Origin: a virus
IMG/VR virus record: IMGVR_UViG_3300018083_000103
Location: 1-27,281 of that record
Strand: one strand, 5' to 3'
Length of the DNA: 27,281 nucleotides
Shown: piece by piece, positions 136-26,580 of the stretch
Position numbering within the stretch: the first letter of the stretch is position 1
How the letters are laid out: each line of letters starts with the position of its first letter
Translations under genes and position numbers: made by a program
Notes under the pieces: model-generated
Databases searched by the model: none
Seen by the model: only the letters and a program-made list of their open reading frames with translations
What the model was told of the DNA's origin: nothing

Positions 136-1848
136 TTAACTGTTGGTATCCAGCCACTCCAACACAAAGCCTTCCATTACAATATCATTGTTACTTGTGG
201 CCTCACCTGTAATCTTGAAGGTAACAGCCCCGCTCAAGGTCTGGTCTAGTGCCGTGGTTGTATTGAGCAAGAAGATTCCAGCTGCACCAGAAGCGGCGTA
301 GGATAATTTCCCATAGCCTCTTTGGGTAGCCGCCCCCGACCTTAGGGCATACCCTTCGACTTCCCAAAAAAGGGCTTGGGCATTCGGAATCCCACTTGCA
401 CCAGTATCGAGAATTAAATTCGTTCCAGATGTGCCAAAGCGTACCCTCACCCTCTTTACATTGGCGTTATTCGCAACAGTCCCCCACGCCTTAAAGCGAA
501 AGCCCATCCCATTTGCGCTCAGGGTGTTCGCTGGGACGCTATAATTTACTAGGTCATCCTCGCCCGTCCCCACATTTCCAGCGCTCGCATGTGCCTCAGT
601 AAGCACCCCACCCACCGCGGCGTCATTGGTGGACGTACCCGCCTTGACGCCCAATTGTGACGCCCCTGCGCTGGTCAGCCCACCGGTGACGGTCACACCG
701 CTGCTGAGAATGCGGAGGGCTTCGGCAAGTGCCGTGACGCCCACGGAGAATATGAGATCGACGGGGATATTGCCAGCGGATACCGCACCATTGACCTTAG
801 CGGCGATGCGCCCCAAGTTGAGATAGTTCGTGCCATCGTGGAACCAGGCGTTCTGGACAAACCCAAAGTCAGCGTCAGCAACGGTTGATTCGCTGCCACG
901 ACTGCCTCTGGCTTTGCGAAAGTTAAACAATGCACCTTGCGCGCCGCTGTTAATCTGCGTACTGGTGATTCCGCGCACCGCATTCGCTGTGCTTGTCGCA
1001 ACTACTTCCAACTCGCCTACGGGGTCAGTATTCTTAACGCCCAGGAAATTATTAACTTCGTCGTAGGTGGACGTGCCGAAGAATAGATTACCCTTCGTGG
1101 CGTTGTTGGTGCTCATCAGGGTCAGGTCGTCGCCACTCGCCGTACCACCCTTGAGCGTTTGCCCGCCACTACGCCCGGCAAGCAAGGCATATCCCGTATG
1201 GTCGTCGTCACTTAGCCCGGCGATACTGCCATGATCAATCAACGCCTGGACAATTGCCGCCGCCTGCGTTGCGGTCAAGTCAGTTGGGTCGCCTGTCCCT
1301 GCCCCCGCCGCACGCCCCTTAATGGTCGATTGCGCCATGTTCGCTAACTTGGCGTTGGTCGTGCCGTCGTCCTTCTCCTGGATGTTGCCGCCGCTGATTT
1401 CGACAGTAGAGTTGTCCACGCCTACCACGAAATCAATCGTGTTGTCGCTGTCCTGGTAGGTAACGCTAACCCCTGTTTCGGTGTTGCCTGTCACCATTGT
1501 CCCAACGAGGTCGGCTACATACTCATCAATGATAGCGATCGACAAAGTGTTGGAGCCATCGGTATAGGTAACGTCAATGCTGCTGCTGTCCGTGATGAGC
1601 GCGCCGACAACATCTTGGAGATACTCATCACTGAGCGCAAAATCTATCGTGTTGTCTGAATCCTGGTAGGTGACGGTGATACCTGTCTCAGTATTACCAC
1701 TGACCATCGCCCCAACGGTGTCGGCAATGTACTCGTCCGTGATGGTCGCGACCTGCTCAACCGTCTCTTGGACAACCAGCCGCTTTTCTAGCCGGTTGAC
1801 GCGCTCCATGAGTTGCCGCAGGAAAGCCATTTCGCCGGGAGTCATCAT
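136..1848 (-). CDS. Tail fibre / receptor-binding protein with N-terminal repeats
   Basis: This 570-residue protein probably forms the distal fibre that contacts the host. Residues 5-35 look like a short coiled coil. Residues 37-142 are three copies of a roughly 35-residue unit that starts with DEY and contains VG-hydrophobic and TYTDGSNTL- or TYQDSDNTIDF-like strands. Residues 211-258 carry the DDDHT / LLAGRSGGQTL / GGTASGDDLTL / ATKG block that I know from many phage tail-fibre proteins. The remainder is Gly/Ala/Thr/Ser/Asn-rich and looks beta-structured, with a likely globular receptor-binding tip at the C-terminus (about 440-570). The ATG overlaps the TGA of the preceding gene as ATGA. 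A second Met follows at once, so the start could be one codon later. Confidence 0.85.
   Translation of the reverse strand: MMTPGEMAFLRQLMERVNRLEKRLVVQETVEQVATITDEYIADTVGAMVSGNTETGITVTYQDSDNTIDFALSDEYLQDVVGALITDSSSIDVTYTDGSNTLSIAIIDEYVADLVGTMVTGNTETGVSVTYQDSDNTIDFVVGVDNSTVEISGGNIQEKDDGTTNAKLANMAQSTIKGRAAGAGTGDPTDLTATQAAAIVQALIDHGSIAGLSDDDHTGYALLAGRSGGQTLKGGTASGDDLTLMSTNNATKGNLFFGTSTYDEVNNFLGVKNTDPVGELEVVATSTANAVRGITSTQINSGAQGALFNFRKARGSRGSESTVADADFGFVQNAWFHDGTNYLNLGRIAAKVNGAVSAGNIPVDLIFSVGVTALAEALRILSSGVTVTGGLTSAGASQLGVKAGTSTNDAAVGGVLTEAHASAGNVGTGEDDLVNYSVPANTLSANGMGFRFKAWGTVANNANVKRVRVRFGTSGTNLILDTGASGIPNAQALFWEVEGYALRSGAATQRGYGKLSYAASGAAGIFLLNTTTALDQTLSGAVTFKITGEATSNNDIVMEGFVLEWLDTNS
1423..1740 (-). 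repeat. Three tandem ~35-codon repeats in the tail fibre gene
   Basis: These encode fibre residues 37-72, 73-106 and 107-142. Copies 1 and 3 are close to identical at the protein level (both contain GNTETG and TYQDSDNTIDF). Copy 2 is diverged and carries TYTDGSNTL instead. The DNA copies differ at many synonymous positions, so the duplication is not recent or has been kept by selection. Each unit likely forms one layer of a trimeric beta-rich shaft. Confidence 0.8.
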
Positions 1849-2966
1849 AGCGCATTCACCATGTCGAGTTGGATACGTTCGGCTGTCTCGCCGCCGGATG
1901 ATGCCGACAACACCACGTGCGCGCCGCGGATGCGCTTGGGGACTGTTTCCTCGTAGTAGGTGACGCCAACAATATCGCCCATGACACCCGCTTGGCAGTA
2001 GTCACGCCCGTACATAAACGCGCCGCTCTGAAGCACGTTGAAGCGAAAGTCATTGCGTGCCCGCAGCTCATTCATGCGTGCATCCCCTGCCGCTTGCAGC
2101 GAGGTTACGCCCTGGTTGGCGGCGTCTACATATACCTCTATGTCGTTATAGTCAGCGACATAGTTCGGCCCTGTCACTTCCAGGAACTCACGCGCCGCGC
2201 CCGAATCCTCTCCCCATGTCATCGCCACCGTTTCCTCGTTGATGGCGCCGCCAATCAGTTGCGGCTCGTCCAGGTTATCCCAGGCTAGGCTAAATTTGAC
2301 GTTGCCGGTCAGGTCATCGCCAAAGACGCCGGTGCGAAACTCCCATGCCCTGAGTCCCGTCTTTACCAAGTCCCAATCCAAGCCGCTCAGTACAGCCAAC
2401 TCTTGTAAGCAATCGTCTACCTTGCGATGGGCAAATGCTTTGGTAACGTTCGTCCCGGCGGCGGTGTCAGCCGCCACGCTGATCAGGCTGGCCCACGTGG
2501 GGACGCGCTTGCGCCCGTCTACGAGGGTAGCGCTTGCCGTACAGTTATACTTGACGATGTTCTTCATACACGTTTCGCCGGGGACACTTGTAAAGTCATT
2601 GCGGAGATTCGTCCCCGCAGGATGGCCCGTGACAGCGCGGTAGAGATAGTGCTTCTGCTCTACGCACTTCATCGTGAAGATACCGTTTTTGTTGCCGTTT
2701 GGCGTCTGCCGGTCACGGTCACGGTAGAGGCCAAAGAAGTCACAGTAGGGGTCGATCGCAGCGTCATGATTCGAGCGCCATATCTCAATCTGTCCGTCCT
2801 GTTCCAGCGCGTCAATGGCGATATGGTTATTGGGCAGCTTGACGCTGAGCAAGCCCCAACCATTGAGATACTTGGAGTAGTCCAACTCCAGGAAGTCGCG
2901 CCCGGTCAAGTCGAATTGGCGCACGCCTGCCCTATTGCGAATCTTGACAACGTACTGAGTGGTCAC
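1845..2966 (-). CDS. Tail hub / baseplate protein, siphovirus ReqiPepy6 Gp37-like
   Basis: This 373-residue protein resembles the Gp37-like tail proteins of siphoviruses. These are taken to be tail-tip or hub components that sit after the distal tail protein. Supporting features are the N-terminal beta-rich segment that lays out position and plane (FLELDYSKYLNGWG, then a polar loop and IEIWRS), the YCDFFGLYRDRDR segment, the central ELAVLSGLDWDLV helix, and a C-terminal region with a conserved-looking GDIVGVTY strand. The start is GTG at 2966-2964, one base after the TAA of the preceding gene. The stop overlaps the fibre ATG. Family assignment is from recalled sequence style, not a search. 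Confidence 0.75.
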   Translation of the reverse strand: MTTQYVVKIRNRAGVRQFDLTGRDFLELDYSKYLNGWGLLSVKLPNNHIAIDALEQDGQIEIWRSNHDAAIDPYCDFFGLYRDRDRQTPNGNKNGIFTMKCVEQKHYLYRAVTGHPAGTNLRNDFTSVPGETCMKNIVKYNCTASATLVDGRKRVPTWASLISVAADTAAGTNVTKAFAHRKVDDCLQELAVLSGLDWDLVKTGLRAWEFRTGVFGDDLTGNVKFSLAWDNLDEPQLIGGAINEETVAMTWGEDSGAAREFLEVTGPNYVADYNDIEVYVDAANQGVTSLQAAGDARMNELRARNDFRFNVLQSGAFMYGRDYCQAGVMGDIVGVTYYEETVPKRIRGAHVVLSASSGGETAERIQLDMVNAL

Positions 2967-2967
2967 G

Positions 2968-3837
2968 TTAGGCCGCCGTGTACCAACCGCTGACAGACAG
3001 GAAGTCGCCGGAACTTATGTCGCTACTGGAAAGAACGTCGGCAAACGAGCTTACGCTGCCCGATACAATCTTGTAGAGAGTGCCCTCAGTGCCGCCCGAC
3101 GATATTTCCATGATGAGTCCAGATATGGCAGAGGCCATGCCAGTCCAAGCGCCAAAGGGGATGTAGAATGTGGCGTTTGCCGTGTAGGGCAGGCCGCGAA
3201 TACTGGCATTTCCGTTATGGCTACCCCCGCTATTGAGTTGGATGACCAAGTTAAAGAATACAACGTTACCTAACCTGTAGTATGTGCCGGTCTGAGTCGT
3301 GTAGGTGACCCCAGTATCGGAGATGGAAAAGTGTAGCGTAGGCGTAAAGCTGCCCGACCTGAATGCGCCGCCAATCCACTCACGCGCATCGGTGACGGTA
3401 ATCACGCCGCCGGTGGTGATGCTCACGGTCGCCAGCGGTATATCCCAGGTCGTGCCGGCGCTCTGTGTCATAGCGGGTGCCGCGCCGCCTTCGCTGCCGG
3501 CAATGCGCGTGATGCGTACCGTCTGCGCTGTCCAGTCGGCGCGCAGGACAATACGATCAATGCGGGTCAGCGATGCCGGGGTAGAAATGGCGACGTTCAC
3601 CGAGGCCGAATTAAAGTAGGGAATACCATAGACAAGCGCCTGGCCGGTGTTGACGGCGACGGGCGATGATGTACCGCTAACGGCCAACTCATTCAGCACG
3701 TTAGGGGCCACGCCGCCTTTGTTGGTCGATTGTGGGCAGAACGAACGGAACAACTGAAAGAGATCGTCATCGGGATAGCCCGAACCTGTACCGTCGCCTG
3801 TGCCACTGGTTTCCCAAAGGATTGATTTCTCTGCCAT
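2968..3837 (-). CDS. Baseplate / tail appendage protein
   Basis: This 289-residue structural protein lies between the distal tail protein and the hub. The N-terminal half has a pattern known from phage baseplate and fibre-attachment proteins: a short polar N-terminus ending in a LFRSFCPQ-like segment, a VNTGQALVYGIPY strand, then RIDRIVLRADW and IPLATVSI, ending near ITVTDARE. The C-terminal half (about 165-289) is Gly/Ser/Thr/Tyr-rich and probably a beta-sandwich carbohydrate-binding or receptor-contact domain. An AGGAGG site lies eight bases from the ATG, overlapping the end of the distal tail gene. Whether it contacts the host surface directly is unknown. Confidence 0.65.
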   Translation of the reverse strand: MAEKSILWETSGTGDGTGSGYPDDDLFQLFRSFCPQSTNKGGVAPNVLNELAVSGTSSPVAVNTGQALVYGIPYFNSASVNVAISTPASLTRIDRIVLRADWTAQTVRITRIAGSEGGAAPAMTQSAGTTWDIPLATVSITTGGVITVTDAREWIGGAFRSGSFTPTLHFSISDTGVTYTTQTGTYYRLGNVVFFNLVIQLNSGGSHNGNASIRGLPYTANATFYIPFGAWTGMASAISGLIMEISSGGTEGTLYKIVSGSVSSFADVLSSSDISSGDFLSVSGWYTAA

Positions 3838-3846
3838 TGCGCCCTC

Positions 3847-4752
3847 CTATTCGAGCGACGGATACTTGTTGTAAAATTCGACGCGCACCAACGTGTCGTC
3901 TGTTGCGCCGCTTGTTACCTCGACACGAATATCATTGACGCCGCCGGGCGCTTCTGGGTCGGCGGCGATACTCCAGGTCGCCAAGTCGCTCTCGTCAGTC
4001 AAGGCGTCATTCTGGTAATCGCCGTTGTTGTCAATCACCACATGTGGGCGCGCGGCCAAGTCAATCAGCCAAGTGTCGCCATCGGGAATCGATGTGCCGG
4101 TGAAGTCGAGTACGGCGCCCGTTGTCTCGTTGGTGATGATGAAGTCCGTCCCCGGCCCGGTGATGTAGATGCGCGGCGATACTTCCCAATCCCCAACGTA
4201 GGTATAGCTAATCAGTTGGTCAATGCCAACGCCCGTGCTGTATTGCATCGGCACTTCGAGCGGTACTTGATAGCCTGTGCCACCCGATGTATCGAAGCTG
4301 ACGTTTTGCAGCGTCGGGTCATAGGGGATAGGGTCAGCCGCCTCGAACTGCACAACTACCAACTGACTATTGCCGATACGCTCTTGCATGGTGTTGGGGA
4401 AGTCCACAATGCCAACGGCGTAGCAATCTATTTGGCGTACCAAGTCATCCTCGCCGGTGACACGTAGCTGTATCGGCGTGCTGGACAATGGCTTGAGGAT
4501 ATGCGCCAGTTGGCGGCGTGCGGTCGCCACCAGCGCAGGCGTCGTGTCGGTGATGAGCAACGCCATATTCAGCATTCGCTCATCCAAGAGAAAGCCCACA
4601 TCCGTACTGCCGTGTTGCTGCGGCCCACGCTCCTTCTGACGGCGAATGGGCGGATTGCCAACGCCGGTCAGCGAGATATAGCTGTACGGGTCGCGCCCCC
4701 ACAGGGGATAGGTTGTGCTGCCAACGATGGCGTCAACTTGAGTGAAGCTCAT
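3847..4752 (-). CDS. Distal tail protein (Dit-like, siphovirus tail component)
   Basis: This 301-residue protein directly follows the tape measure, the standard place of the distal tail (Dit) protein that forms the ring joining tail tube and baseplate. Residues 1-130 match the Sipho_tail style, with an N-terminal beta-barrel, a segment around residue 40 with an RRQKERGPQQHG loop, and an LRVTGEDDLVRQIDCYAVGIVD strand pair. The rest, with WEVSPRIYITGPGTDFIITNETTG, resembles the galectin-like insertion and C-terminal domain of long Dit proteins. GAGG precedes the ATG. It is probably translated together with the tape measure gene, eight bases upstream. Confidence 0.75.
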   Translation of the reverse strand: MSFTQVDAIVGSTTYPLWGRDPYSYISLTGVGNPPIRRQKERGPQQHGSTDVGFLLDERMLNMALLITDTTPALVATARRQLAHILKPLSSTPIQLRVTGEDDLVRQIDCYAVGIVDFPNTMQERIGNSQLVVVQFEAADPIPYDPTLQNVSFDTSGGTGYQVPLEVPMQYSTGVGIDQLISYTYVGDWEVSPRIYITGPGTDFIITNETTGAVLDFTGTSIPDGDTWLIDLAARPHVVIDNNGDYQNDALTDESDLATWSIAADPEAPGGVNDIRVEVTSGATDDTLVRVEFYNKYPSLE

Positions 4753-7744: not shown

Positions 7745-8212
7745 ATGAAACGCATATTGCCCTTTGGTCTTGGTTACGTCGCTGGCTTTGCCACGCTCTT
7801 TGTACTCATGCTCATCTTTGGCGATTACAGCGATACACCGTCTCAAGTTTCAGCCGCCCCTTCAGTGCCACAAATCGACGCCGGTCTTGTGCTTGGCAGC
7901 TTTCAATCGACGGGTATTCAAGTCCAAGATATTGATCGCACTCCCCAACTTGACCCCAACTCGCCGCTACCCCGCAGTTTTCGCTCACATGCCACATGGA
8001 AAGATGCCCTACTTGGCGACAAAGGTGGTCAGCTTTTTGTCTGCGATAGCCCCGACCTTTGCCGTTCCATCTCTGCCTACTTTCAGGCGCTCGTAGGATT
8101 GGCTGGCCCTTACACCTACACCTCGCCATCGGGCTTGGTTGTCGTTCAGGTCAACAGCAGTTACACCCCTGACCAAGCAATACGTTACAAAAATGCTTTG
8201 GCGAATTACTAG
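7745..8212 (+). CDS. Membrane-anchored extracytoplasmic protein, antisense moron
   Basis: This 155-residue protein is the only supported gene on the plus strand. Residues 1-6 are polar and basic. Residues 7-25 form one hydrophobic segment with a GxxxG-like GLGYVAG start. There is no lipobox, so an uncleaved anchor or Sec signal is likely. The rest faces outward and contains C100 and C106 in a GGQLFVCDSPDLC context, a possible disulfide, then a GPYTYTSPSGLVVVQVNSS strand pair. AGGAG lies eight to nine bases before the ATG, with its own promoter upstream. The gene sits exactly between the tail chaperone and tape measure genes, which are normally adjacent. It may serve host conversion or superinfection exclusion, but I do not recognise a characterised family. 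Confidence 0.8.
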   Translation: MKRILPFGLGYVAGFATLFVLMLIFGDYSDTPSQVSAAPSVPQIDAGLVLGSFQSTGIQVQDIDRTPQLDPNSPLPRSFRSHATWKDALLGDKGGQLFVCDSPDLCRSISAYFQALVGLAGPYTYTSPSGLVVVQVNSSYTPDQAIRYKNALANY

Positions 8213-8743: not shown

Positions 8744-9244
8744 TTAGGTTGTAGCGGTCAAGGCGCGCAGGACTTTGGGTGCTTCCAGGACAACGCTCAC
8801 CAGCGCCGGGCCACCGTTGCCGGCGTCCAAGTCGGGTACGTTCATCGACTTGATGATGGCGGGAAAGGCGCTGCCGGCGTCGTCGGTGGCGGTGAATTGC
8901 TCGTTGCCCACGACCGTACCGATACCGCCTTCAGGCGCCCAACGGATATACACCGTCTTGGCAGAGTTGCCCGCTACCTCTTGGCGGTCTTTGATGAAGT
9001 CCCAAAACTCACCGCTTACTTTGGTGTAGATGCCCCGGCAAGTGATGGTTGCGGCGCTGTGCTTACCGCCACCGGTCACGACGGGCGCAAGGCCGTCTGC
9101 GGTGTTCTGTGCGCCGCTCATCTGCTCCTGCCCGGTGTGCTTGATGTCCACCGTACTGCCCGACTTGTCCGCCCATGACGAACCATCGGTGGACAGTTGG
9201 ACCATAAACTTATTCTGTGGGATTGCCCCGGTACTCTGTGTCAT
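8744..9244 (-). CDS. Major tail tube protein
   Basis: This 166-residue protein forms the hexameric rings of the tail tube. Evidence is the position directly before the chaperone pair, the usual length, and the layout: an N-terminal strand (KFMVQLSTDGSSW), a Gly/Thr-rich loop around residues 45-62, a central YTKVSGEFWDFIKDRQ helix region, and a C-terminal run of beta strands ending in an APKVLRAL strand. GGAG precedes the ATG by eight bases. It lies two bases after the glycosyltransferase stop, so the sugar genes and the tail tube are on one transcript. Confidence 0.8.
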   Translation of the reverse strand: MTQSTGAIPQNKFMVQLSTDGSSWADKSGSTVDIKHTGQEQMSGAQNTADGLAPVVTGGGKHSAATITCRGIYTKVSGEFWDFIKDRQEVAGNSAKTVYIRWAPEGGIGTVVGNEQFTATDDAGSAFPAIIKSMNVPDLDAGNGGPALVSVVLEAPKVLRALTATT

Positions 9245-9246
9245 TT

Positions 9247-10068
9247 CTAGTTCTCCATAATCTCAATGGCGCGCCTGTCCAGGAAGATGGCGGCGGCGTC
9301 TGCACTCAACTCGATACTGTCACCTACTTTGTATTCTTTACTCGGCCCTGAAATCTGCCGTCTTACACGATATGTTGCTACGTCAGGCAAGACGATACCC
9401 TTATGCTGTGGCACGTCGCCACCCTCTATCCTGTGCATGTCGGGCGCGTCGGGGTCAGGCCACAGTACCCCGCCCTCATGGATGATATGGCCGCAGACCA
9501 CGCTTAGGTCATGCGCCATGCGAAAGCCCTTCTCCTTGGCGTCAAGGGCGAATTGCCAATCGTCGGCAAACTTGCGCCGCTTGTCGTCACGGAAGGTGAT
9601 GGCCTCGAGCACGTTCCTACGAATCAACGTACAACCAAAGCCCGCGCCCTCGCTGGGTAGCACCTTGCCCCATGCGGCTTTGGCGGCGTCACGGTCTGCA
9701 TTTAGCGCAACGCCCTTGTAGCCGTCAATGGTGGGGATACAAAGCCATATACGGCTACTGCGTGACACGTATAGACCGCAGGCAATGTCAGCGTCAACAG
9801 CAGCAAGTTTCACCAGCGCATCCGGCGGCACAATCATGTCAGCTTCGATGGTGAGTAGCGCATCGTAGCCACCCGCCAACACGTCGTCACGCATCTTGTT
9901 ATGCTTGATGGTCAGGTTGTCAGGGTGACTCAACTTGGGGTTGTCGTCGCCGTAGTAGGCAACCAATACACCATGCTTGCCATAATCCAGCGCATCCATT
10001 GATGCCCTCGCCGCAGGGTAAACATCTGGCTCAGTTGGATAAGTTGCCACGCCAATCAATATCTTCAT
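9247..10068 (-). CDS. Glycosyltransferase-like protein, GT-A fold
   Basis: This 273-residue protein has the look of a GT-A nucleotide-sugar glycosyltransferase. It has an N-terminal Rossmann-like strand (ILIGVATY) and a metal-binding type acidic motif, EAD at residues 75-77 (LLTIEADMIVP). A later GAGFGCTLIRRNVLE segment resembles the acceptor-side loop of such enzymes. The last 40 residues (YKVGDSIELSADAAAIFLDRRAIEI) form a small separate beta domain like a short KOW/SH3-style module. Its ATG overlaps the stop of the preceding GT2-like gene as ATGA, so the two are likely made together. Its place inside the tail operon suggests virion glycosylation, which is inference. Confidence 0.75.
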   Translation of the reverse strand: MKILIGVATYPTEPDVYPAARASMDALDYGKHGVLVAYYGDDNPKLSHPDNLTIKHNKMRDDVLAGGYDALLTIEADMIVPPDALVKLAAVDADIACGLYVSRSSRIWLCIPTIDGYKGVALNADRDAAKAAWGKVLPSEGAGFGCTLIRRNVLEAITFRDDKRRKFADDWQFALDAKEKGFRMAHDLSVVCGHIIHEGGVLWPDPDAPDMHRIEGGDVPQHKGIVLPDVATYRVRRQISGPSKEYKVGDSIELSADAAAIFLDRRAIEIMEN

Positions 10069-10607
10069 ACGTGTTCTGGTTCTCCCCTGCTAACCCTTTG
10101 GCATTTGCTTGCCACTACATCCAGCCAATACACTTCGTAATCTCGCTCAAAGACGTCGCTGATAAAGTTGAAATCGCTCGAATATGTTCCCGGCGCAAAG
10201 GCGCTGCGATGGCGCATCCATACCGCCCGCTTGACGATAAAGCAACTGACGCACACATGTCCCAACTGCGGCGGCTTTTGCCAGGTGAACTTGTCTGGCA
10301 AGATGTGTCCATCCCTGTCCATCTTCATCATGACCACGTCAGGATTATGGGCGAAAGCAACGTCGTATAAGTCCGCTACCAAATCCTCATAGACACACAG
10401 GTCATCGTCATCAAGCAACCACACGAAGTCCCCGCCCGGCTCATAAGTGGATAGACGCTCATAGGTGGCGGCAATGCCGATGCCCTCGTGGTCAATCATC
10501 ATCGTCTGTGTCCAGTCATGCGACGATTGCCGCTCCAGGCTGGCGCGATTGTGGCGCAACATGGCCGGGCGCTTGTACGTGCGCGTGATGATCTCTAGCA
10601 ATGCCAT
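10065..10607 (-). CDS. Family 2-like glycosyltransferase
   Basis: This 180-residue protein has the N-terminus of GT2 enzymes, EIITRTYKRPAMLRHNRASL, in which the TRT..RP segment marks the nucleotide-binding start. WLLDDDDL at residues 63-70 is the DxD-type metal-binding motif. It is short for the family (commonly 220-300 residues) and may be a minimal catalytic domain. A later FISDVFERDYEVYWLD segment may hold the catalytic base region. Its ATG overlaps the TAA of the tail-terminator gene as TAATG, and it is followed by a second glycosyltransferase. The acceptor is unknown. Confidence 0.8.
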   Translation of the reverse strand: MALLEIITRTYKRPAMLRHNRASLERQSSHDWTQTMMIDHEGIGIAATYERLSTYEPGGDFVWLLDDDDLCVYEDLVADLYDVAFAHNPDVVMMKMDRDGHILPDKFTWQKPPQLGHVCVSCFIVKRAVWMRHRSAFAPGTYSSDFNFISDVFERDYEVYWLDVVASKCQRVSRGEPEHV

Positions 10608-11023
10608 TAGCCATTCCCCGTAATGCTTGCCACGATGTACCAGTATTCCGTCTCACCGATGTAGTCAATCTCGCCGCGTATCGCCCACGACAGCTTGGCT
10701 TGCGAGATAGTATTGGTGGCAGGTACGGCGCGCAAGGTCGTACACAAGGCGTCTATCAAGGTCAAGGCCAACGCCTGGTTGGTCGGTTGCCTACTCTGCC
10801 CAACAGGCGACACCACGATTACCAGTTCGACTGTGCGGTTAGGCCAGCCGCCTTGCCCATCCGCCGTCAGTGGCCCTTCGCTGCCCACAGGTAAGCGCAC
10901 AAACTGGCAAGGCAAGTCTGCTGTGCTGAGTTGGTCGGGTATGTTCGTGTACTTGCGCTTCACCCCCGTGATACTCAGGTTGGCGACGCCACTACTAAAG
11001 GCAGCATAGGTATAGATGGTCAT
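10607..11023 (-). CDS. Tail terminator / tail completion protein
   Basis: This 138-residue protein lies between the head-tail connector and the tail tube module, the usual place of the tail terminator that caps the tube and joins it to the head. Its pattern fits: GWPNRTVELVIVVSPVG gives a central strand pair, followed by LALTLIDALCTTLRAVP as an amphipathic helix, and WYIVASITGNG as the final strand. Function is assigned from position and general fold pattern, without a signature motif. The start overlaps the connector stop as ATGA. Confidence 0.6.
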   Translation of the reverse strand: MTIYTYAAFSSGVANLSITGVKRKYTNIPDQLSTADLPCQFVRLPVGSEGPLTADGQGGWPNRTVELVIVVSPVGQSRQPTNQALALTLIDALCTTLRAVPATNTISQAKLSWAIRGEIDYIGETEYWYIVASITGNG

Positions 11024-11595
11024 ACAAGCCGCCTGTATGGGGCGAGTAGCGCCTTTAGGTCTTTGGGCAGGTCAGCCGGTAACAACATGGCGCTGCTGCC
11101 GATCGCAATCGGTCTGTCCAGGTCGCCTGAATTGTTCTTCTGCCGGTACAGGTACGCCGCGAGCCGCGTGCAAGCCTGTACAATGTCCGCCGGTGCGCTT
11201 GTGCTATATGCCCACTTGCCGACAATCGAAATACTGTTCTCCGGCGTCGTTGTGTACGTCCATGCCACCGTGCTATTGCTCTTGAGCGTCAATGCCCGGT
11301 ACGGCGTGCTATTGCGCGGCTCGGTGATGTAATTGCCGGCTGATACCACGTTGCCGTCACCGTTGGTCACGGAGGTAATCGCCGCAAGAGGCGCATCCAG
11401 ATAGAGCCAACGCCCTGAGGCGTCACGCGTCGGGTCAAAGGTGCGCGTGGTATCACCGCTTGCCTCAAATGTTTGGCGGCAATAACTGTCAATGAAGGCT
11501 TGCGCCGCGGCAATCAACGTACCGAGTAAGGTATCGTCTGTCGTTTCGGTGATGCCTAAGTAGACTTTTAGGTTGGCCGCGCTCACGTATGCCAT
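11020..11595 (-). CDS. Head-tail connector protein, HK97 gp6-like
   Basis: This 191-residue protein begins YVSAANLKVYLGITETTDDTLL and continues with an AAQAFIDSYCRQTF helix. This is the classic N-terminus of gp6/gp15-type connectors, which form a ring below the portal. The middle is an extended beta region (WLYLDAPLAAITSVTNG). The C-terminal helix is IVQACTRLAAYLYRQK, and the protein ends LPKDLKALLAPYRRL, the usual ending of the family. The ribosome-binding site is weak, and the gene starts one base from the stop of the small upstream gene. Confidence 0.85.
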   Translation of the reverse strand: MAYVSAANLKVYLGITETTDDTLLGTLIAAAQAFIDSYCRQTFEASGDTTRTFDPTRDASGRWLYLDAPLAAITSVTNGDGNVVSAGNYITEPRNSTPYRALTLKSNSTVAWTYTTTPENSISIVGKWAYSTSAPADIVQACTRLAAYLYRQKNNSGDLDRPIAIGSSAMLLPADLPKDLKALLAPYRRLV

Positions 11596-11802
11596 TTACT
11601 TTTTCGCCTTTGGACTCCGTAGCATCTTGTCAACCGGCGGCGCTTCTATCGCCTTGACCGCATCTTCGATACGAACAAAGCACCCCGGCGCATCTGCCAT
11701 TAGGAACAAATAGAGTTCGTTGTCAGGCTCAAGCACCTGCCCGACGGGGAAGTGCATCCCACGCCCAATGTACTCGCTGATAACTCTTAGTTTTTGCGCC
11801 AT
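11596..11802 (-). CDS. Small conserved head-module protein
   Basis: This is a 68-residue protein between capsid-region genes and the connector. Residues 1-45 look like a small beta barrel, with YIGRGMHFPVGQVLEPDNELYLFLMADAPGCFV. The tail is basic and Pro/Lys-rich. Short proteins of this style are common between the capsid and connector genes of siphoviruses, but I know no defined role. It overlaps the end of the sugar-methyltransferase gene by 16 bases, and its AGGAG site lies within that gene. Confidence 0.6.
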   Translation of the reverse strand: MAQKLRVISEYIGRGMHFPVGQVLEPDNELYLFLMADAPGCFVRIEDAVKAIEAPPVDKMLRSPKAKK

Positions 11803-13115
11803 AGGTTCTCGCTCTCCTCTATCATGCCAACTGCCTCACACCATGCCTTGAAATAGGCGCTGTTGTCATGGTGCATCGGGTATAGATCCTGTTGCCCAAA
11901 GTTGTTATGAGCAAAGATATGGCCGCCGCTCACGATGGCCGGCTCAAGGTCAGCTAAAAAGGTAGGCAACTCGTCCGGGTGGATATGCTCAATTGTGTCA
12001 ATGGCAACCACAAGGTCAAAGTATTCATCGCCTAATGCCTGCCCAAGCGTGTCGCCCTCTAGCCACTTGACGCGCTCGCCAAGCCGCTTGGTTGCGAAGT
12101 CTTTCAATGCGCCCGGCAACTCGAAGCAGGTTACGTCGTTATGGTCAGCCATCACATCGGCCTCTGTGCCTAAGCCTGTGCCAATCACAAGGACCCTTTG
12201 CCCTGCGATGCCGTACAGCGGCGCTATGATACGGTCATAGAGTGGTTGACAATTCCAGTTCAGCAAGTCATAGAGATAGCCGTTTTGTGCGCTGCCATAG
12301 AAGGCGCGCTCCTGCTCTGCCGTCTGCGGCGGGTTGGCTTGCCACGGCTCACGCACGTTCTTATTGCCATTGATGGACTTGGCGACTACCATGTCAGGCG
12401 TTTCGCCGGTAAAGTCGGCCACCATTCTTGCCAATCTGTCATAGCGCTCAATCAGTGGCAACTGCCCACTCACACGCAAGTAGTCTTGATAACTCTCCCA
12501 CGAGGTTGTCACCTCAGTCACATGGCCTGCCCGTATCGCCGTCGTTGCGCCCAGGCGAAAACCAAGCCCCTGCGCTTCGATACTAAAGATACCGTCCTCA
12601 GACGCCTTGTTGTGGCGCGGGTAATAGAACCAATCGAAGGTATCTGGGTCAGCATCGCCCAGCATCTTCAAGAACACTTCTCTGCGGAATAGACAGCAAT
12701 GCGTGCCTACCATATCCACATCTTCGATTTTGTCCGGGTCAGTGACGAAGCATTCCATCATCTCACCCAGGGCGTTGCGCTTCATCCAAATGGCCCGCGG
12801 CGGCCAACCCCGCCGCGGGTAGAAGGCTTGAAGGATGTCATAAGCAAAGCCCGGTTCGTAGTTCCTAAACTGCTCTACGAAGTCCGATGCTACATCGGCA
12901 TCGCTGTCAAGGGTTAGCAGGGTATCCATGTCGGTCGTAAGGAAGTGGCGCACCACATCGTTCTGTGCTTTGTGCGCCACCATCCCCGCGGCTGAATAGA
13001 GGCCGTCTCCTTTGCGTAAACCGCCGGTGACAAGCTGAGTCCACGCCTGAAAGAAGCGTGGCGTGACCTGTTTCTCCAACCTGGTTGACACCAGGATACG
13101 GCCCCAATCTTTCAC
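11787..13115 (-). CDS. Glycosyltransferase-methyltransferase fusion
   Basis: This 442-residue protein has two enzyme-like domains. Residues 1-230 resemble a GT-A glycosyltransferase, with TLDSDAD at 68-74 as the DxD metal site and VGTHCCLFRREVF at 136-148. Residues 265-442 are a class I SAM-dependent methyltransferase: VLVIGTGLGTEAD at 308-320 is motif I, FELPGA follows as the acidic loop at 331-336, and FDLVVAIDTIEHI at 366-378 is motif IV. FAHNNFG at 401-407 lies in the following strand. The likely reaction is transfer of a sugar and methylation of that or a neighbouring sugar. The start is GTG at 13115-13113 with AGGAGG upstream. It sits between decoration and connector genes. Confidence 0.8.
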   Translation of the reverse strand: MKDWGRILVSTRLEKQVTPRFFQAWTQLVTGGLRKGDGLYSAAGMVAHKAQNDVVRHFLTTDMDTLLTLDSDADVASDFVEQFRNYEPGFAYDILQAFYPRRGWPPRAIWMKRNALGEMMECFVTDPDKIEDVDMVGTHCCLFRREVFLKMLGDADPDTFDWFYYPRHNKASEDGIFSIEAQGLGFRLGATTAIRAGHVTEVTTSWESYQDYLRVSGQLPLIERYDRLARMVADFTGETPDMVVAKSINGNKNVREPWQANPPQTAEQERAFYGSAQNGYLYDLLNWNCQPLYDRIIAPLYGIAGQRVLVIGTGLGTEADVMADHNDVTCFELPGALKDFATKRLGERVKWLEGDTLGQALGDEYFDLVVAIDTIEHIHPDELPTFLADLEPAIVSGGHIFAHNNFGQQDLYPMHHDNSAYFKAWCEAVGMIEESENLWRKN

Positions 13116-13123
13116 GTACCCTC

Positions 13124-13543
13124 CTACGGGTTGAGTGAGATAAACAAAACGGCGTCCACATCCAATGTGTTGGTTGGGTTGAGGTCGGTCGTGCCGGTGA
13201 CACTTAAGCCGAGAGTCTCACCGGCGGCAAAGGTGATTGCGCCGGGTCGGATGGTGGCATATGTGCCATTGGTGTCATTGTCCGAGGTCAGCGCAGGAGC
13301 AGGGTAGCCGCTCTGAGCAAACTCGGTGCTATTCTTGTGCGCGCGCACGGTAATCGTGCCGGCGGTGATGGCCGCACAAGAGGCGCTAATACCGACGATA
13401 GTTCCTGCTGCTGGGGCGACAATCAGCGTACCTGCCCCGGCCAACACGCAATCTTCATTGCTTGCGCCGGTCGTGACGTTGGTCTTTTGGAACGGAATCG
13501 CCACAATCGCCCCGTACTTCTTAGAATCAAATTCGTTTGCCAT
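13124..13543 (-). CDS. Probable capsid decoration / stabilising protein
   Basis: This 139-residue protein directly follows the major capsid gene. It is rich in Ala, Thr, Gly and Val, with alternating hydrophobic strands such as TLIVAPAAGTIVGISASC and ITVRAHKNS, and it lacks enzyme motifs, signal peptide and membrane segments. Its last strand (DVDAVLFISLNP) resembles the ending of small beta-sandwich fibre or decoration proteins. The gene position right after the capsid supports a decoration role, but the fold could also serve a head fibre. GGGAG lies seven bases before the ATG. Confidence 0.6.
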   Translation of the reverse strand: MANEFDSKKYGAIVAIPFQKTNVTTGASNEDCVLAGAGTLIVAPAAGTIVGISASCAAITAGTITVRAHKNSTEFAQSGYPAPALTSDNDTNGTYATIRPGAITFAAGETLGLSVTGTTDLNPTNTLDVDAVLFISLNP

Positions 13544-13563
13544 GATCTATCTCCCTCAGTCAC

Positions 13564-14988
13564 TTAGACTGTGATGTTGAATAAGCCGCCGGTGTGGGTG
13601 TTGGTGGAACGTGTCCCCCACGCCGCAAGCGCCTGCCGGAAAGACGACACAACGATGAACTGACGGCGCTGAATGTCCTTGTCCATCTCGATCAGCAGGT
13701 CGCGACGGAAGCCGATATACCACATATCACGGTTGACAATCGACAAGCCACCCTTTGCGCCAGCCGCCACGTTCGCCTTGCCGTCGGTTTCGGTCAAAGG
13801 CTGTGAGGCGGTCACGACAATCGGAACGCCACGGAAGGCGGCAAGCTGCCCGGTCAAGACAAGGGCGTTGGAGCCAAACTTGTCAATCGTGGTCAGCAAT
13901 TCACCCGGCGAGCCACTTGCCGCGCTGAGAAAGCCGTTCAGGTAGGTGGACACATCGCAGAAGATCACCAGTTTGTTCGGGTCAACTGCGTACTTGCCCA
14001 TCGCCGCCATCTCGGTCAGCAGCTTGGCGTCAGTCAGTGCGCCGTTTTGGTCAGTCCCCATGTTGGTGTTATCCACGAGGTACTGGTGACGGATACCGTC
14101 CTGCCCGTTGCTGATATAGTAGCTATCCGATGGCGGGGTGGCATCGTCCATATTGATGTTGCCGGTTGATGTGACGGTGTTGTCAGCGTTGAGCGCGAAA
14201 GCGTCCATTGCCTCAGCGCCGGACTGTGCCAAGCGCGCACGAATGGCCGGCGCCATCGCCACCACAGCATCCTCATCCAGCGTGTAGCTCCACGCCTGTT
14301 CCGTGACAAGCTCAGTGCTAGTCAACGTCACCTTAGCGGTGCTGGGGTTGCTCTGCGTGGTAGCAGTATTCTCGCCACCCTTGCGCCAGGTCACGCTGCC
14401 AAGCCCAAGCGGAATGTCAAAGGGATTGGTCGGCATGGCGATGCGCTGCAAGGTGCTGACAATCTTGGACTGAAGGAAGAAATCCTCCCACAGTTGGCCC
14501 GCCAAGTTGGTCGGAACCAACTCATCACCGGCGGTAGCGGTCGTGCTATCCATTGCCTTGATTGCGGCCTTGAGGTCGTCGCTCGGCTGCACATACGGCG
14601 CACCCAGCGCGGCATAGTAGTTCTTGGCTTGCCCTTCCATCAACATCTTGGCAATGGCAAGGTCTACCGGCTGCAAGCGGGTGATACCGTCCTTGTGATA
14701 GCCGTCTACCTCAAAGTCATGTAGCATCTTGGCATAGCGATTGCCCTTGAGCGATGCGCGTGCGGCCCCGTCCAAGACAGGTGCGCCGGCCACGCCACGC
14801 CGCTGGGGTTGGGCGTCCATCTTCTCTTGCACCTGTGAGGCGACAAGAGCGTTCATTTCCTTCTCAAAGTCTTTCTTGAGGTCGTCCCATTGCAGCGTGG
14901 TCTTAACGTCTTGCCCCGCTGCTGTTTTCTCTTGGATGGCGGCGGTTAGTTTGCCAATCGCCCCCATCACATCTTCGTTGTTAGCCAT
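13564..14988 (-). CDS. Major capsid protein, HK97 fold
   Basis: This 474-residue protein is the head shell subunit. Residues 1-75 are a charged helical delta (scaffold) domain that should be removed by the prohead protease encoded just upstream. No separate scaffold gene is present. The mature part contains DELVPTNLAGQLWEDFF at about 154-170, typical of the start of the N-arm and spine helix in HK97 shells, then the E-loop region and the P-domain. GAEAMDAFALNAD is the spine-type segment, and FRGVPIVVTASQPL is the conserved A-domain strand near the C-terminus. The ending YIGFRRDLLIEMDKD followed by a strand is also characteristic. GGGGGAG precedes the ATG. Confidence 0.95.
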   Translation of the reverse strand: MANNEDVMGAIGKLTAAIQEKTAAGQDVKTTLQWDDLKKDFEKEMNALVASQVQEKMDAQPQRRGVAGAPVLDGAARASLKGNRYAKMLHDFEVDGYHKDGITRLQPVDLAIAKMLMEGQAKNYYAALGAPYVQPSDDLKAAIKAMDSTTATAGDELVPTNLAGQLWEDFFLQSKIVSTLQRIAMPTNPFDIPLGLGSVTWRKGGENTATTQSNPSTAKVTLTSTELVTEQAWSYTLDEDAVVAMAPAIRARLAQSGAEAMDAFALNADNTVTSTGNINMDDATPPSDSYYISNGQDGIRHQYLVDNTNMGTDQNGALTDAKLLTEMAAMGKYAVDPNKLVIFCDVSTYLNGFLSAASGSPGELLTTIDKFGSNALVLTGQLAAFRGVPIVVTASQPLTETDGKANVAAGAKGGLSIVNRDMWYIGFRRDLLIEMDKDIQRRQFIVVSSFRQALAAWGTRSTNTHTGGLFNITV

Positions 14989-20714: not shown

Positions 20715-20782
20715 TACCAGCCCCAAGTCTTATAACCGTCGGGGTGCGCCATGCCGAAGAGTGACCAAAGCAGTTCAAACAT
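20714..20782 (-). CDS. 22-residue peptide coupled to endolysin stop
   Basis: The ATG lies within the last codons of the endolysin gene, with a strong GGAGG six bases upstream. The frame runs 22 codons to a TAA whose last base starts the next ATG. The peptide is aromatic and amphipathic (FELLWSLFGMAHPDGYKTWGW). It could be a leader that carries ribosomes from the lysin to the lipoprotein gene or a functional micropeptide. The strong ribosome-binding site is the main evidence. Confidence 0.45.
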   Translation of the reverse strand: MFELLWSLFGMAHPDGYKTWGW

Positions 20783-22136
20783 TGCTTGCCTCCAGTAGTA
20801 AGTCAGCCCGACGATTCGTCCATCCGCGCCCAAAGGTATCGAAGCTGCCAAGCGTCGCGTACCATTTGAGCAGGTTGCCCACGTAGGCATCGAAGCTGCC
20901 GCCACTCTTGTCCAGCATCTCCTTAGCGCGTCCAGGGCCGGCGTTGACAGCCGTATCGAAGTGCGCCAATGCCAGCGGCCAGGGCAGCTTATCGCTACCA
21001 CTCGCCTCCCAATACCACTTGCGGTATATCTCGTCCGTCTCGGCGTCAGTGATATTTCGCAAGTCCTCTTTCGTCGGTGTCGGCAATCCCTTCGCCTCAC
21101 GCCAACGGGTAAATGTGCCGATGGTGATACCCTTGTTGGTTGCACCGCCGGGGTCGGCGGGGTTGTCAGCCCAGCCCCCTTCCCACTTCGCGATAAATGC
21201 GCGGGCGCGTGTCCAGTTGTCGCCGGATGGCGGCGCGCCGTTGTCGATGGCCGGCAAGTGCGTCTCAAATGGCGGTGTTGCGGTTGCCGTGATAGGCGTT
21301 GCCAAAATCGCCTTGTATGCCGGCTCTACGTCAAAGCTAAACCACTCATGCGCCGCGAAGTCGCTGGCAAAGACAGCGCAACCAACAAAGCGTGGATCGG
21401 CGCTCATGCGGCCCACGTACTCAGCGAGTTCGTTGGCGTAACGTTCCGGCGGCATGTGACCCTGCCAGCCGCGCCGTTGTTGCCCAACGCTCGTGTCTTT
21501 GACGAACATATCCACGCCGCATTCGCCAATCACAATCGGCACTTGCCACGGGCACTTGAGCGTGCGCCCGCCCCACCATCCCCAATTCTCAGCCGGCCCC
21601 TGGTCTGCCCAGTATTCGTGGCAGACCAAAGCGCCACCGTTGCGAAGTATCGCCTCGTCTACGCCGTGAAAGGGCGACCAATCCGGCGGCGTGTCAGGGC
21701 CATTGTTGCCCGGCCAGCCCACGCCAAGCTGCATAGCGCCTACGCGTAGGCCGTACTTCATGGCCTCGTAGCACAAAGCGATAGTGTATTGACGAAGCGC
21801 CTCAGGAAAGCCCTCTTGCCACACCGTCGGCTCGTTGATGCCAAGAATCAGCGTCTTGGTGCGGTCAAAACCAAGTTTGGGTTGATGCTCGTTCCACTCC
21901 CGCGCGTGGCGTGTACCTGTCCCAACGGGGTCGCGGAGCATGTCGGCATGTTGCTCGCTTTGAGCCCAGTCCCTAGCTACAACCAAACTATCGGAAAGAT
22001 TTGCTTTTATCCAACTGTAATCAGATTCTCCGCCATCCATAACTTTCATGACGGAGGGTTGCAACTCGGAAAAGTACGCGTAATCTTCCGCACGTCTATG
22101 CATTACAGACCAATAAACGGATAACTTACTTGTCAT
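20775..22136 (-). CDS. Endolysin with clan GH-A-like and GH108 muramidase domains
   Basis: The start is set at 22136, where AAGGAG precedes ATG by ten bases; an earlier ATG at 22166 would add ten residues inside the HNH gene. The product is 453 residues. Residues 5-285 look like a TIM-barrel glycosidase: GINEP (Glu102) after a beta strand and IGECGVD (Glu205) fit the acid/base and nucleophile of clan GH-A. Residues 309-450 match GH108 lysozymes: FIAKWEGGWADNPADPGG with catalytic-type Glu319, then NKGITIGTFTRW, and a C-terminal peptidoglycan-binding-3-like part (AHFDTAVNAGPGRA). It should cut the glycan chain of peptidoglycan. No signal peptide is seen, so export depends on the holin. Confidence 0.85.
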   Translation of the reverse strand: MTSKLSVYWSVMHRRAEDYAYFSELQPSVMKVMDGGESDYSWIKANLSDSLVVARDWAQSEQHADMLRDPVGTGTRHAREWNEHQPKLGFDRTKTLILGINEPTVWQEGFPEALRQYTIALCYEAMKYGLRVGAMQLGVGWPGNNGPDTPPDWSPFHGVDEAILRNGGALVCHEYWADQGPAENWGWWGGRTLKCPWQVPIVIGECGVDMFVKDTSVGQQRRGWQGHMPPERYANELAEYVGRMSADPRFVGCAVFASDFAAHEWFSFDVEPAYKAILATPITATATPPFETHLPAIDNGAPPSGDNWTRARAFIAKWEGGWADNPADPGGATNKGITIGTFTRWREAKGLPTPTKEDLRNITDAETDEIYRKWYWEASGSDKLPWPLALAHFDTAVNAGPGRAKEMLDKSGGSFDAYVGNLLKWYATLGSFDTFGRGWTNRRADLLLEASNV

Positions 22137-22701
22137 GGTCGCGGTGCTCCTTACCGTGACAATCAAGGCACACGGGAATTACCTCCAACCAATATTGGCG
22201 GTCATAGCCCTTGTGATGATGCCAGTGGGACGCTTGCGCCTCGTCACAAATAGAACAAACCATTGACCAGGCAGGCGGCAATAAGCTGCGACGAACTGCA
22301 CGCGCGACCGTAGTTTGTGCGCGCCTCTGGTCATTGCGATAGCCCTTCGCCTGCTTAATACTGCGTTCATATTGCCGCACTTTTTCGGGGTCGCGCTGTC
22401 TCTGAACACGCTGCCATTCGAGTACCTTACGGCGATACTCTTCATCGTTGCGATAACGTTCTCTAGCATAAGCCGTTTCATGCTCAAGATTGGCTTGATG
22501 CCATTCACGCATATACTCGCTACGGCGTTCTTGATTTTCTTCTCGCCAAGCCTTATAGAGCGCGCTAGAGCAAGACTTGCAATAAGCACGCAAGCCGTCT
22601 TTGGCACCTTTTGTTTTAGAGAATTGGTCTAGGGGTTTTGCTTCCCCGCACTTAGTGCAGGTTTTGAACGCAGGCGCGCCCAGGGTATCATTGAGGTTCA
22701 T
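22126..22701 (-). CDS. HNH endonuclease with N-terminal zinc knuckle
   Basis: The product is 191 residues from the ATG at 22701, preceded by AAAAGGGA. The frame is open upstream to 22860, a possible start that would add 53 residues of Cys/Gly/Asn-rich sequence. Residues 15-44 carry CxxC...CxxC. The middle (45-130) is a very charged helical region rich in Arg, Glu and Tyr. Residues 149-186 form the HNH core, CSIC, a HWHHHKGY segment, and CLDCHGKEH, where the His run supplies the catalytic histidine. Such genes often behave as free-standing mobile nucleases. This one lies within the lysis genes and overlaps the endolysin start by 11 bases. Confidence 0.85.
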   Translation of the reverse strand: MNLNDTLGAPAFKTCTKCGEAKPLDQFSKTKGAKDGLRAYCKSCSSALYKAWREENQERRSEYMREWHQANLEHETAYARERYRNDEEYRRKVLEWQRVQRQRDPEKVRQYERSIKQAKGYRNDQRRAQTTVARAVRRSLLPPAWSMVCSICDEAQASHWHHHKGYDRQYWLEVIPVCLDCHGKEHRDHDK

Positions 22702-24715: not shown

Positions 24716-24924
24716 CGTAACAGCTCCTTTGATTCGATTGTGGCGGTAGGTTCTGCGTCACGCACTTCGACAAGCCGGTAGAAGCGCCCAGGATACTGCG
24801 CCAACGTGCGCCATTCGGGTTCTCCGCACTCGGCAATGTAGCCACAGCACATTTCCACCACGATAGGCCGCGTTGACGTTTCGGTTGGGTAATAGTGATA
24901 GCTGCCGTCAGGGAGTGACTTCAT
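24712..24924 (-). CDS. Small hypothetical protein
   Basis: This 70-residue protein has two Cys in CCGYIAECG and aromatic strands (YHYYP, RFYRLVEV). It has no membrane segment and no known motif. Both ends overlap neighbours by four bases (ATGA), which supports its reality as part of the same operon as the DNA methyltransferase. Confidence 0.6.
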   Translation of the reverse strand: MKSLPDGSYHYYPTETSTRPIVVEMCCGYIAECGEPEWRTLAQYPGRFYRLVEVRDAEPTATIESKELLR

Positions 24925-25607
24925 GCGCCTATCTCCAGTAGCGGCAATTGCATTTGCGCCTCAGCTATGCGTTTCTCTGCGATGGCGAAATAGGTCGGGT
25001 CGATTTCGATGCCGATAAAGTTGCGCCCCGTCTTGACACAGGCGACGCCGGTTGTGCCTGAACCGGCAAAGCAATCCAGTACCGTTCCGCCAGGCCGCAC
25101 CCATTGCGATACCATGTGCTGTACTTGGTCTAGTGGTCGCGGGCACGGATGACCATTAACGTAATTCGACATACCCGGTTGCCGCATTGCCGGATTTGTA
25201 TTCGCCACATGGTAATCACGTGACAATGTGCCTTCGCTCCAAATATCGCCATCTGTCCACCATGCAATCACAGGGTCAAAGGCGTACTGCATTGCGATAG
25301 GTCGCATTTGCACAAAGTTTTTGCAAGCCGCAAAGATTCGATAATTGCGCGGGAACCATTCGCCAAAAAGCCGAACGTTTGGCATTGCCTGCCAAACGAA
25401 CACAGGCGAGCCGGGCTTACAAAGCCGTTCCGCTTCCAGCAATACCGACCATAGCCATTCTCCGTAGCCTTCAGGCGAATCATCGTACGTGGCATACTTA
25501 AAACCAATCCCATACGGCGGGTCAGTCACCACCGCGTCAACGCTGCTATCCGCCATACTCCTCATCACCTCCAGGCAATCGCCCAGATGCAACTGTACGT
25601 TGGTCAT
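24921..25607 (-). CDS. Orphan DNA methyltransferase, N4-cytosine or N6-adenine
   Basis: This 228-residue enzyme transfers a methyl group from SAM to an exocyclic amine in DNA. DPPYGIG at 29-35 is motif IV (catalytic), and DCFAGSGTTG at 178-187 is the SAM-binding motif I. This order, IV before I, marks the beta class. The middle region (80-165), the probable target-recognition part, has a PCPRPLDQV segment typical of such phage enzymes. No restriction enzyme gene is adjacent, so it probably protects phage DNA or marks it for timing. DPPY could go with either base. ATGA overlaps both neighbours. Confidence 0.9.
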   Translation of the reverse strand: MTNVQLHLGDCLEVMRSMADSSVDAVVTDPPYGIGFKYATYDDSPEGYGEWLWSVLLEAERLCKPGSPVFVWQAMPNVRLFGEWFPRNYRIFAACKNFVQMRPIAMQYAFDPVIAWWTDGDIWSEGTLSRDYHVANTNPAMRQPGMSNYVNGHPCPRPLDQVQHMVSQWVRPGGTVLDCFAGSGTTGVACVKTGRNFIGIEIDPTYFAIAEKRIAEAQMQLPLLEIGA

Positions 25608-26371: not shown

Positions 26372-26580
26372 TTGTCGCCTCCCATGCTGAGTTCCTCGAT
26401 ACGTAGCTCGCGCCCTACGAAAAAACCTCTCTCCCGCGCCGTCAACTGCATGAGCGTCTTGCTGTGCCAGAATGCCGGCAGCCTGTTCGGGTCAGCGTCA
26501 TAACCTTCTTCCAGCCCCGCCGCGTACTCGGCCTTGAGGCGGTCTAGCTCACGTTGAATGTTCGTGTTGACGATTACCAT
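26368..26580 (-). CDS. Small helical hypothetical protein
   Basis: The start is set at 26580, where GGAGGG lies three to four bases before the ATG; an upstream ATG at 26604 lacks such a site. The 70-residue product is helical with charged faces (IQRELDRLKAEYAAGLEEG) and ends in a second helix around ARERGFFVGRELRIEEL. Its start overlaps the end of the cytosine methyltransferase gene by seven bases. Role unknown. Confidence 0.6.
   Translation of the reverse strand: MVIVNTNIQRELDRLKAEYAAGLEEGYDADPNRLPAFWHSKTLMQLTARERGFFVGRELRIEELSMGGDK

Follow-up and report, generated by a model that had tools for sequence, protein, structure and literature searches.

A glycosyltransferase-methyltransferase fusion co-inherited with a putative decoration protein points to probable virion-modifying enzymes at two places in a phage operon

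We describe predicted sugar-modifying enzymes encoded among the capsid and tail genes of a tailed virus, in positions 8,744 to 14,988 of virus record IMGVR_UViG_3300018083_000103 (the window, by which we mean the whole 27,281-base stretch analysed). The nine genes found there appear, from their order and spacing, to form one tightly packed virion operon on the minus strand. One of them encodes a 442-residue fusion of a glycosyltransferase (GT) and a methyltransferase (GT-MT) and stands directly after the gene for a putative decoration protein; two others encode enzymes of 180 and 273 residues and stand directly before a probable tail-tube gene (Table 1). We consider it probable that these are phage-encoded enzymes that modify the virion, at two places in a single operon. 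Virion glycosylation is favoured because the GT-A motifs and fold are intact, the second half of the fusion is O-methyltransferase-like, the placement of the genes is conserved, and gain and loss of the GT are locked to the decoration gene.

A scan with a GT-MT profile found 13 viral loci, one of which (L014) matches weakly and has no capsid match. In the other 12 the GT-MT gene follows the capsid and decoration genes, and in the 10 whose contigs reach far enough the gene for a 68-residue protein comes next. A sample independent of the GT was drawn by scanning with a capsid profile, which 160 relatives passed and of which the best 80 were used; second contig copies (L019, L095, L096) and near-copies (L013, L018, L038) were dropped, and the window and the loci found earlier were added. 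Eighty loci were scored, 64 of them resolved and 16 either cut by contig ends or lacking a recognisable 68-residue gene; near-copies above 90% capsid identity are still in the counts (among resolved loci, L050/L056, L045/L046 and L078/L088). With type-A decoration proteins defined as profile matches at E <1e-30, a GT is present in 29 of 29 resolved loci with a type-A protein, in none of the 21 with a weakly similar decoration protein and in none of the 14 where none was recognised. Methyltransferase sequence was detected in 26 of the 29; L050 runs off its contig, and L070 and L081 carry the GT alone, so that the GT is the constant part of the arrangement.

On the capsid tree (67 rows) the GT changes 10 times, in each case along with the decoration type, for which 10 changes are counted as well; of the independent pairs that fall on well-supported branches, six of six are concordant (sign test p 0.031). 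The decoration tree requires about 2 changes of the GT, and a single GT clade is not rejected (approximately unbiased test, p 0.43). The decoration and GT genes thus move between capsid backbones as a unit. Across 23 loci, GT-MT distances correlate with those of the decoration protein at r 0.83 (0.70 given the capsid), and with those of the 68-residue gene, its other neighbour, at r 0.58 (0.32 given the capsid). The asymmetry persists when the decoration alignment is shortened to match that of the 68-residue gene in columns (mean 0.64, 5th percentile 0.54), and none of 500 permutations gives a value as high as the one observed. At the level of sequence comparison, this asymmetry between the two neighbours of the GT argues for a functional pair.

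The fusion itself is built of two domains. In an alignment of 13 relatives, with identity down to 29%, residues D70, S71, D72 and H198 of the GT half are invariant and E173/D174 are kept in at least 90%. The AlphaFold2 model is confident (predicted local distance difference test score, pLDDT, 92; predicted template modelling score, pTM, 0.84). Residues 5-211, compared by VIA-align, match A197 of Sulfolobus turreted icosahedral virus (STIV) best (Z 19.3, 2.5 Å, 172 residues, 18% identity), followed by LH3, Mnn9 with guanosine diphosphate and Mn, and Mimivirus R699. With a DxD motif, a catalytic acidic residue, a C-terminal His and a modelled GT-A fold all present, we assign this half as a GT-A glycosyltransferase. 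The other half carries S-adenosylmethionine (SAM) motif I, VLVIGTGLGTEAD, and scores above the cut-offs of two Pfam families (PF08241, 31.4 against 21.2; PF13649, 31.2 against 27); together with its predicted Rossmann-type fold, this identifies it as a class I SAM methyltransferase. Residues 267-442 match NodS, a chitooligosaccharide N-methyltransferase, best (Z 16.3, 2.7 Å, 170 residues), and as many solved class I methyltransferases score at Z 14-16, that match does not single out a substrate. Predicted viral proteins matched by the model include a Che8 'Glycosyltransferase' (391 residues, E 4.8e-11), at a poor overall root-mean-square deviation of 21.6 Å. A sequence-only reading of this DNA had listed DSDAD, DDDD, EAD and SAM-binding motifs, all of which are there; it had also called the gene a fusion and proposed structure prediction of the enzymes. 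For GT-MT that prediction returns a GT-A fold joined to a methyltransferase fold, and Pfam, the motifs, the model and its structural matches together bear the fusion out.

The neighbour upstream is plausibly a decoration protein, judged by its place after the capsid gene and its modelled fold. The AlphaFold2 model is a jelly-roll (pLDDT 86, pTM 0.80) that matches the phi812 spike (Z 10.0), the KHP40 cement protein (Z 8.4) and SPV1 (Z 8.4). Type-A decoration proteins contain 22.4% Ser+Thr and the others 17.6%; a single acceptor residue was sought in the decoration alignment, and no convincing site was found there. On the other side of GT-MT, the 68-residue protein has relatives of which three of the four tested give sub-threshold matches to DUF7210. 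Its C-terminal PPxDKM-basic motif is kept in most of 13 aligned relatives, diverged ones included. We dropped the idea that it is a dedicated partner of GT-MT: a profile finds it in relatives that have no GT, and it is present in 35 of 35 loci classed as GT-less, its presence being part of that classing.

Six loci classed as lacking GT-MT (L064, L065, L066, L071, L074, L076) have a gene of a different family between the decoration and 68-residue genes. Its products show HSD/HAD and ED motifs and a late His, with an hhalign probability of 92.6% against the GT half of GT-MT and of 3.6% against the 273-residue enzyme; five of the six (all but L065) were scanned and gave no Pfam or PHROG match. 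This second head-slot family is probably also GT-A, and it is offered here as an unannotated GT-A-like family. Further members occur in L008, L061, L063 and L086, of which L008 and L061 also have GT-MT. With both families counted, a GT-like gene stands between the capsid and 68-residue genes in 35 of the 64 resolved loci.

At the tail end of the operon, the 273-residue enzyme and the GT half of the fusion are members of one GT-A family (hhalign probability 98.4, E 7e-15). It matches phrog_1574 (1.6e-8) and phrog_12406 'glycosyltransferase' (0.0038), and it shares EAD, DDW and H194 with a 72% identical relative in L003. The suggestion that its tail is a fused copy of the 68-residue protein stays weak (Pfam DUF7210 E 0.017; hhalign 43%). 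The 180-residue protein also has a relative in L003 (67% identical, with the motifs TRxYxRP and LDDDD kept). It gave no Pfam or NCBIfam match and no relevant solved relative, its best PHROG (14775) is weak at E 0.077, and hhalign to the GT half gives 3.6%; from its motifs it is probably a sugar enzyme. Of the three sugar-modification genes originally proposed, two (GT-MT and the 273-residue enzyme) are thus firm, and the 180-residue GT2-like enzyme is probable, on its motifs.

The proposal that the three form one set found no support in that form. Scans with the 273-residue enzyme and with the tail protein found L003 as the sole relative, and the pair of tail enzymes is seen in the window and L003 only, with this tail-tube gene. 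The close relatives L002 and L004 have GT-MT without the 180- and 273-residue enzymes. A search for the three genes between capsid and tail genes of related phages, which the sequence-only reading had suggested, therefore gives a split answer: GT-MT recurs beside the decoration gene, going with the head module, and the other two go with this tail-tube gene. Once near-copies were taken out, 35 loci had 5 kb or more of downstream sequence, and four of these have a GT between connector and tape measure (the window, L003, L029 and L046); in L046 the GT is again joined to a methyltransferase-like domain, which scores below cut-off (E 0.0018), and the gene lies directly before the probable tail-tube gene.

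We propose that in the head slot the GT half would transfer a sugar from a nucleotide donor, with a metal held by DSD and the C-terminal His and with the conserved ED as catalytic base. The acceptor would be Ser/Thr of the adjoining decoration protein, or of the capsid beneath, and the second half of GT-MT would then methylate the added sugar, capping it. In the tail slot the 180- and 273-residue enzymes may do likewise for the neighbouring tail-tube protein, and the benefit could be stability, shielding or altered adsorption. This yields a concrete enzyme-acceptor prediction, GT-MT with the type-A decoration protein. The earlier claim that the enzymes glycosylate and O-methylate virion proteins is thereby supported as a class of function, by the GT-A motifs and fold, the placement and the co-inheritance; the acceptor and the sugar are what we infer.

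Several points weigh against virion modification at two places. The type-A profile was built from 13 GT-bearing loci, and the decoration tree, which groups its rows without that profile, consists of rows that were found with it. The decoration protein has no family match, and TNF and C1q domains score at the same level in the structural comparison (Z up to 10). Decoration proteins paired with the second GT family are the lowest in Ser+Thr (14.6%), contrary to a simple rule. The window enzymes show no sequence similarity to Che8 gp108-gp110. The tail part of the proposal draws on two loci for the enzyme pair (the window and L003) and four of 35 for any GT. Finally, adjacency by itself could yield joint movement, and neighbouring genes can be exchanged jointly without being enzyme and substrate.

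This last point is the core of an alternative that we judge unlikely, in which the enzymes do modify virion proteins, the tie to the adjacent decoration gene is hitch-hiking, and the protein actually modified in the head is the capsid or another virion protein; capsid and tail-tube proteins are the targets reported for Che8 and Corndog in excerpts of two papers (PMC12363180, PMC12619734). Hitch-hiking fits poorly with a GT that tracks the decoration gene far more than its 68-residue neighbour, and with capsids of similar sequence that occur both with and without a GT. It also fits poorly with L011, L056 and L058, where the end of the capsid match (partial in L011) is some 590-660 bases more distant and decoration and GT genes stay paired. 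It is highly improbable that the enzymes instead modify glycans on the surface of the infected or lysogenic host, as in serotype conversion or superinfection exclusion. Phage glycosyltransferases of that kind exist (excerpt of PMC12619734), but the serotype-conversion transferases are membrane-embedded, and by hydropathy none of the three enzymes has a membrane segment (19-residue maximum 0.94-1.40). Their genes also lie among virion genes, locked to decoration type, and the window shows no recognisable flippase-type partner, the record being probably a fragment. Least probable of all is glycosylation of modified bases in phage DNA: there are DNA methyltransferase-like genes at 24921-25607 and 26574-27281 (by motif, by eye) and DNA-glycosylating phage enzymes are known (cited in an excerpt of PMC12619734), but the best structural matches are a GT linked to a viral coat and protein or glycan glycosyltransferases, GT-MT adjoins the decoration gene, and no base-hydroxylating gene was recognised in the window, which may be partial.

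Under the preferred reading, virion modification by the phage's own enzymes, a wider idea suggests itself, which we put forward tentatively. The cement protein may be part of an exchangeable 'coat cassette' that brings its own modifying enzyme, with the tail-tube slot independent of it. Just as speculatively, the cassette might come in several versions: cement with GT-MT, cement with the second, unannotated GT family, and, among other relatives, versions with a caspase-like or HslV-like protein in the same slot. If true, one recombination event would swap the whole surface chemistry and not the surface protein alone. The arrangement also supplies a rule for finding such enzymes: the places to search are the interval from the decoration gene to the DUF7210-like gene and that from the tail terminator gene to the tail-tube gene.

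Other proteins were also seen in the head slot. In L016 (13063-13635), L047 (10152-10724) and L057 (12158-12766), proteins of about 190-200 residues with DLHG/DLNG and TTC/TVC motifs lie between the capsid or decoration gene and the 68-residue gene, where other loci have the glycosyltransferase. We take the motifs to be reminiscent of caspase-like (CHAT) peptidases; searches of Pfam (L016, L047, L057), PHROGs (L047, L057) and NCBIfam (L016) gave no match. In L031 a protein of the HslV peptidase family (3633-4175; phrog_1040, 4.9e-23) lies between the decoration and 68-residue genes.

Table 1. Genes of the virion operon at positions 8,744 to 14,988 of the window.
Feature	Position	Strand	Basis
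Major capsid protein, HK97 fold family	13564-14988	-	TIGR01554 48.6 bits (cut-off 27.5); phrog_10 7e-7
Decoration (cement) protein candidate, 'type A'	13124-13543	-	Position after capsid; AlphaFold2 jelly-roll; GT gene pairing
GT-MT, 442 residues: GT-A glycosyltransferase (~1-205) and class I SAM methyltransferase (~262-442)	11787-13115	-	Pfam, motifs, AlphaFold2 fold
DUF7210-like small protein, 68 residues, C-terminal PPxDKM motif	11596-11802	-	Sub-threshold DUF7210; alignment
Head-tail connector	11020-11595	-	phrog_442 1e-24; PF05135 above cut-off
Probable tail terminator	10607-11023	-	Position; 80% identical protein at same place in L003
GT2-like enzyme, 180 residues (probable)	10065-10607	-	Motifs only (TRxYxRP, LDDDD)
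GT-A enzyme, 273 residues	9247-10068	-	hhalign to GT half of GT-MT; phrog_1574
Probable major tail (tube) protein	8744-9244	-	Position; 88% identical in L003

The genes of the window are mostly on the minus strand, where terminase, portal, a gp10-like protein and protease genes precede the capsid gene and where the tail-tube gene is followed by a probable chaperone and, further on, by tape measure, Dit-like and more tail genes. The coordinates and gene order given by the sequence-only reading are right. Spacing within the stretch varies between a 16-base overlap, of GT-MT with the 68-residue gene, and a 20-base gap. The connector and tail terminator overlap by 4 bases, the tail terminator and 180-residue gene by 1 and the two tail enzymes by 4, and 2 bases separate the 273-residue and tail protein genes. 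GT-MT starts with GTG, with AGGAGGG upstream. The tail terminator, major tail protein and decoration protein have no match in Pfam, PHROGs or NCBIfam, and their labels are positional. Within the tail operon a 155-residue gene lies on the opposite strand (7745-8212, +), encoding an N-terminal hydrophobic segment and giving no PHROG match. An endolysin is encoded at 20775-22166 (-), with a phrog_315 lysis domain at 316-457 and an N-terminal part of about 300 residues that looks glycoside hydrolase-like by eye.

We infer that the host belongs to the Chloroflexota, from sequence matches in a search of 400 genomes of that phylum. The capsid profile matched four, and three of these have portal, protease, decoration and 68-residue relatives alongside, without a GT. 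The GT-MT profile matched seven, six of them over the linker and methyltransferase part only; the seventh, G001, has a match to both halves, and this genome contains L020, which is itself a row of the profile, so that its E-value is inflated. L020, a Dehalococcoidia contig from a metagenome-assembled genome, encodes a 460-residue GT-MT fusion at 1830-3212 (29% identity); its neighbours include no recognisable tailed-phage proteins (one weak PHROG match among six tested), and possibly the fusion sits there in a different virus or element. In the phage collection the capsid had one match, in a Microcystis phage at 27%, and the decoration protein, GT-MT and the 180- and 273-residue enzymes had none; a single-protein portal search of viral contigs found no relative.

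The sequence-only reading had called the enzyme set uncommon, which holds only in part, comparable sets being found in the mycobacteriophages Corndog and Che8. The Corndog genes gp35-gp38, which lie between portal and protease, encode an O-methyltransferase, two glycosyltransferases and a putative N-acetylglucosaminyltransferase; for the capsid, the authors of that study put forward both methyl and glycan modification (excerpts of PMC4351075). With reference to Freeman 2023, later papers name as targets of such enzymes the capsid proteins, or both capsid and tail-tube proteins (excerpts of PMC11600133, PMC12363180, PMC12619734, PMC11256854). Corndog and Cluster O resemble the window in that several glycosyltransferases and a methyltransferase are encoded within the virion operon. 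In Corndog, however, the O-methyltransferase is a separate gene and all lie between portal and protease, whereas in the window a fusion gene separates the decoration gene from the DUF7210-like gene and the other two enzymes are encoded at the tail-tube gene. Che8, reported as glycosylated (excerpt of PMC12363180), has a three-gene set (gp108-gp110) in which gp108 is itself a fusion (Glycos_transf_2, 34.0 bits at 31-132; TylF, 39.3 bits at 295-366), but this set is found at the genome's right end and its methyltransferase is of a different family. STIV A197 is a viral GT-A enzyme for which glycosylation of the virus coat protein has been proposed (excerpt of PMC4187194), although STIV is an archaeal non-tailed virus and A197 has no fused methyltransferase. 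In MW202496 (Myoviridae sp. ctvy9321), matched by the L020 relative at 26% identity, the capsid gene and a 100-residue gene are directly followed by a GT-like gene, but the GT is single-domain, the capsid neighbourhood is another one and there is no methyltransferase. Among the matches listed from open-licence papers, none dealt with methylated glycans on phage virions or described a decoration-GT cassette. Among tailed phages, virion glycosylation has been documented in a few that infect actinobacteria, and its likely range is extended here to a large uncultured lineage (160 capsid relatives in one collection). On these comparisons neither the fusion nor the three-gene set appears categorically new, each having a known counterpart through unrelated sequences; what is new here is the cassette behaviour, the two slots and the lineage.

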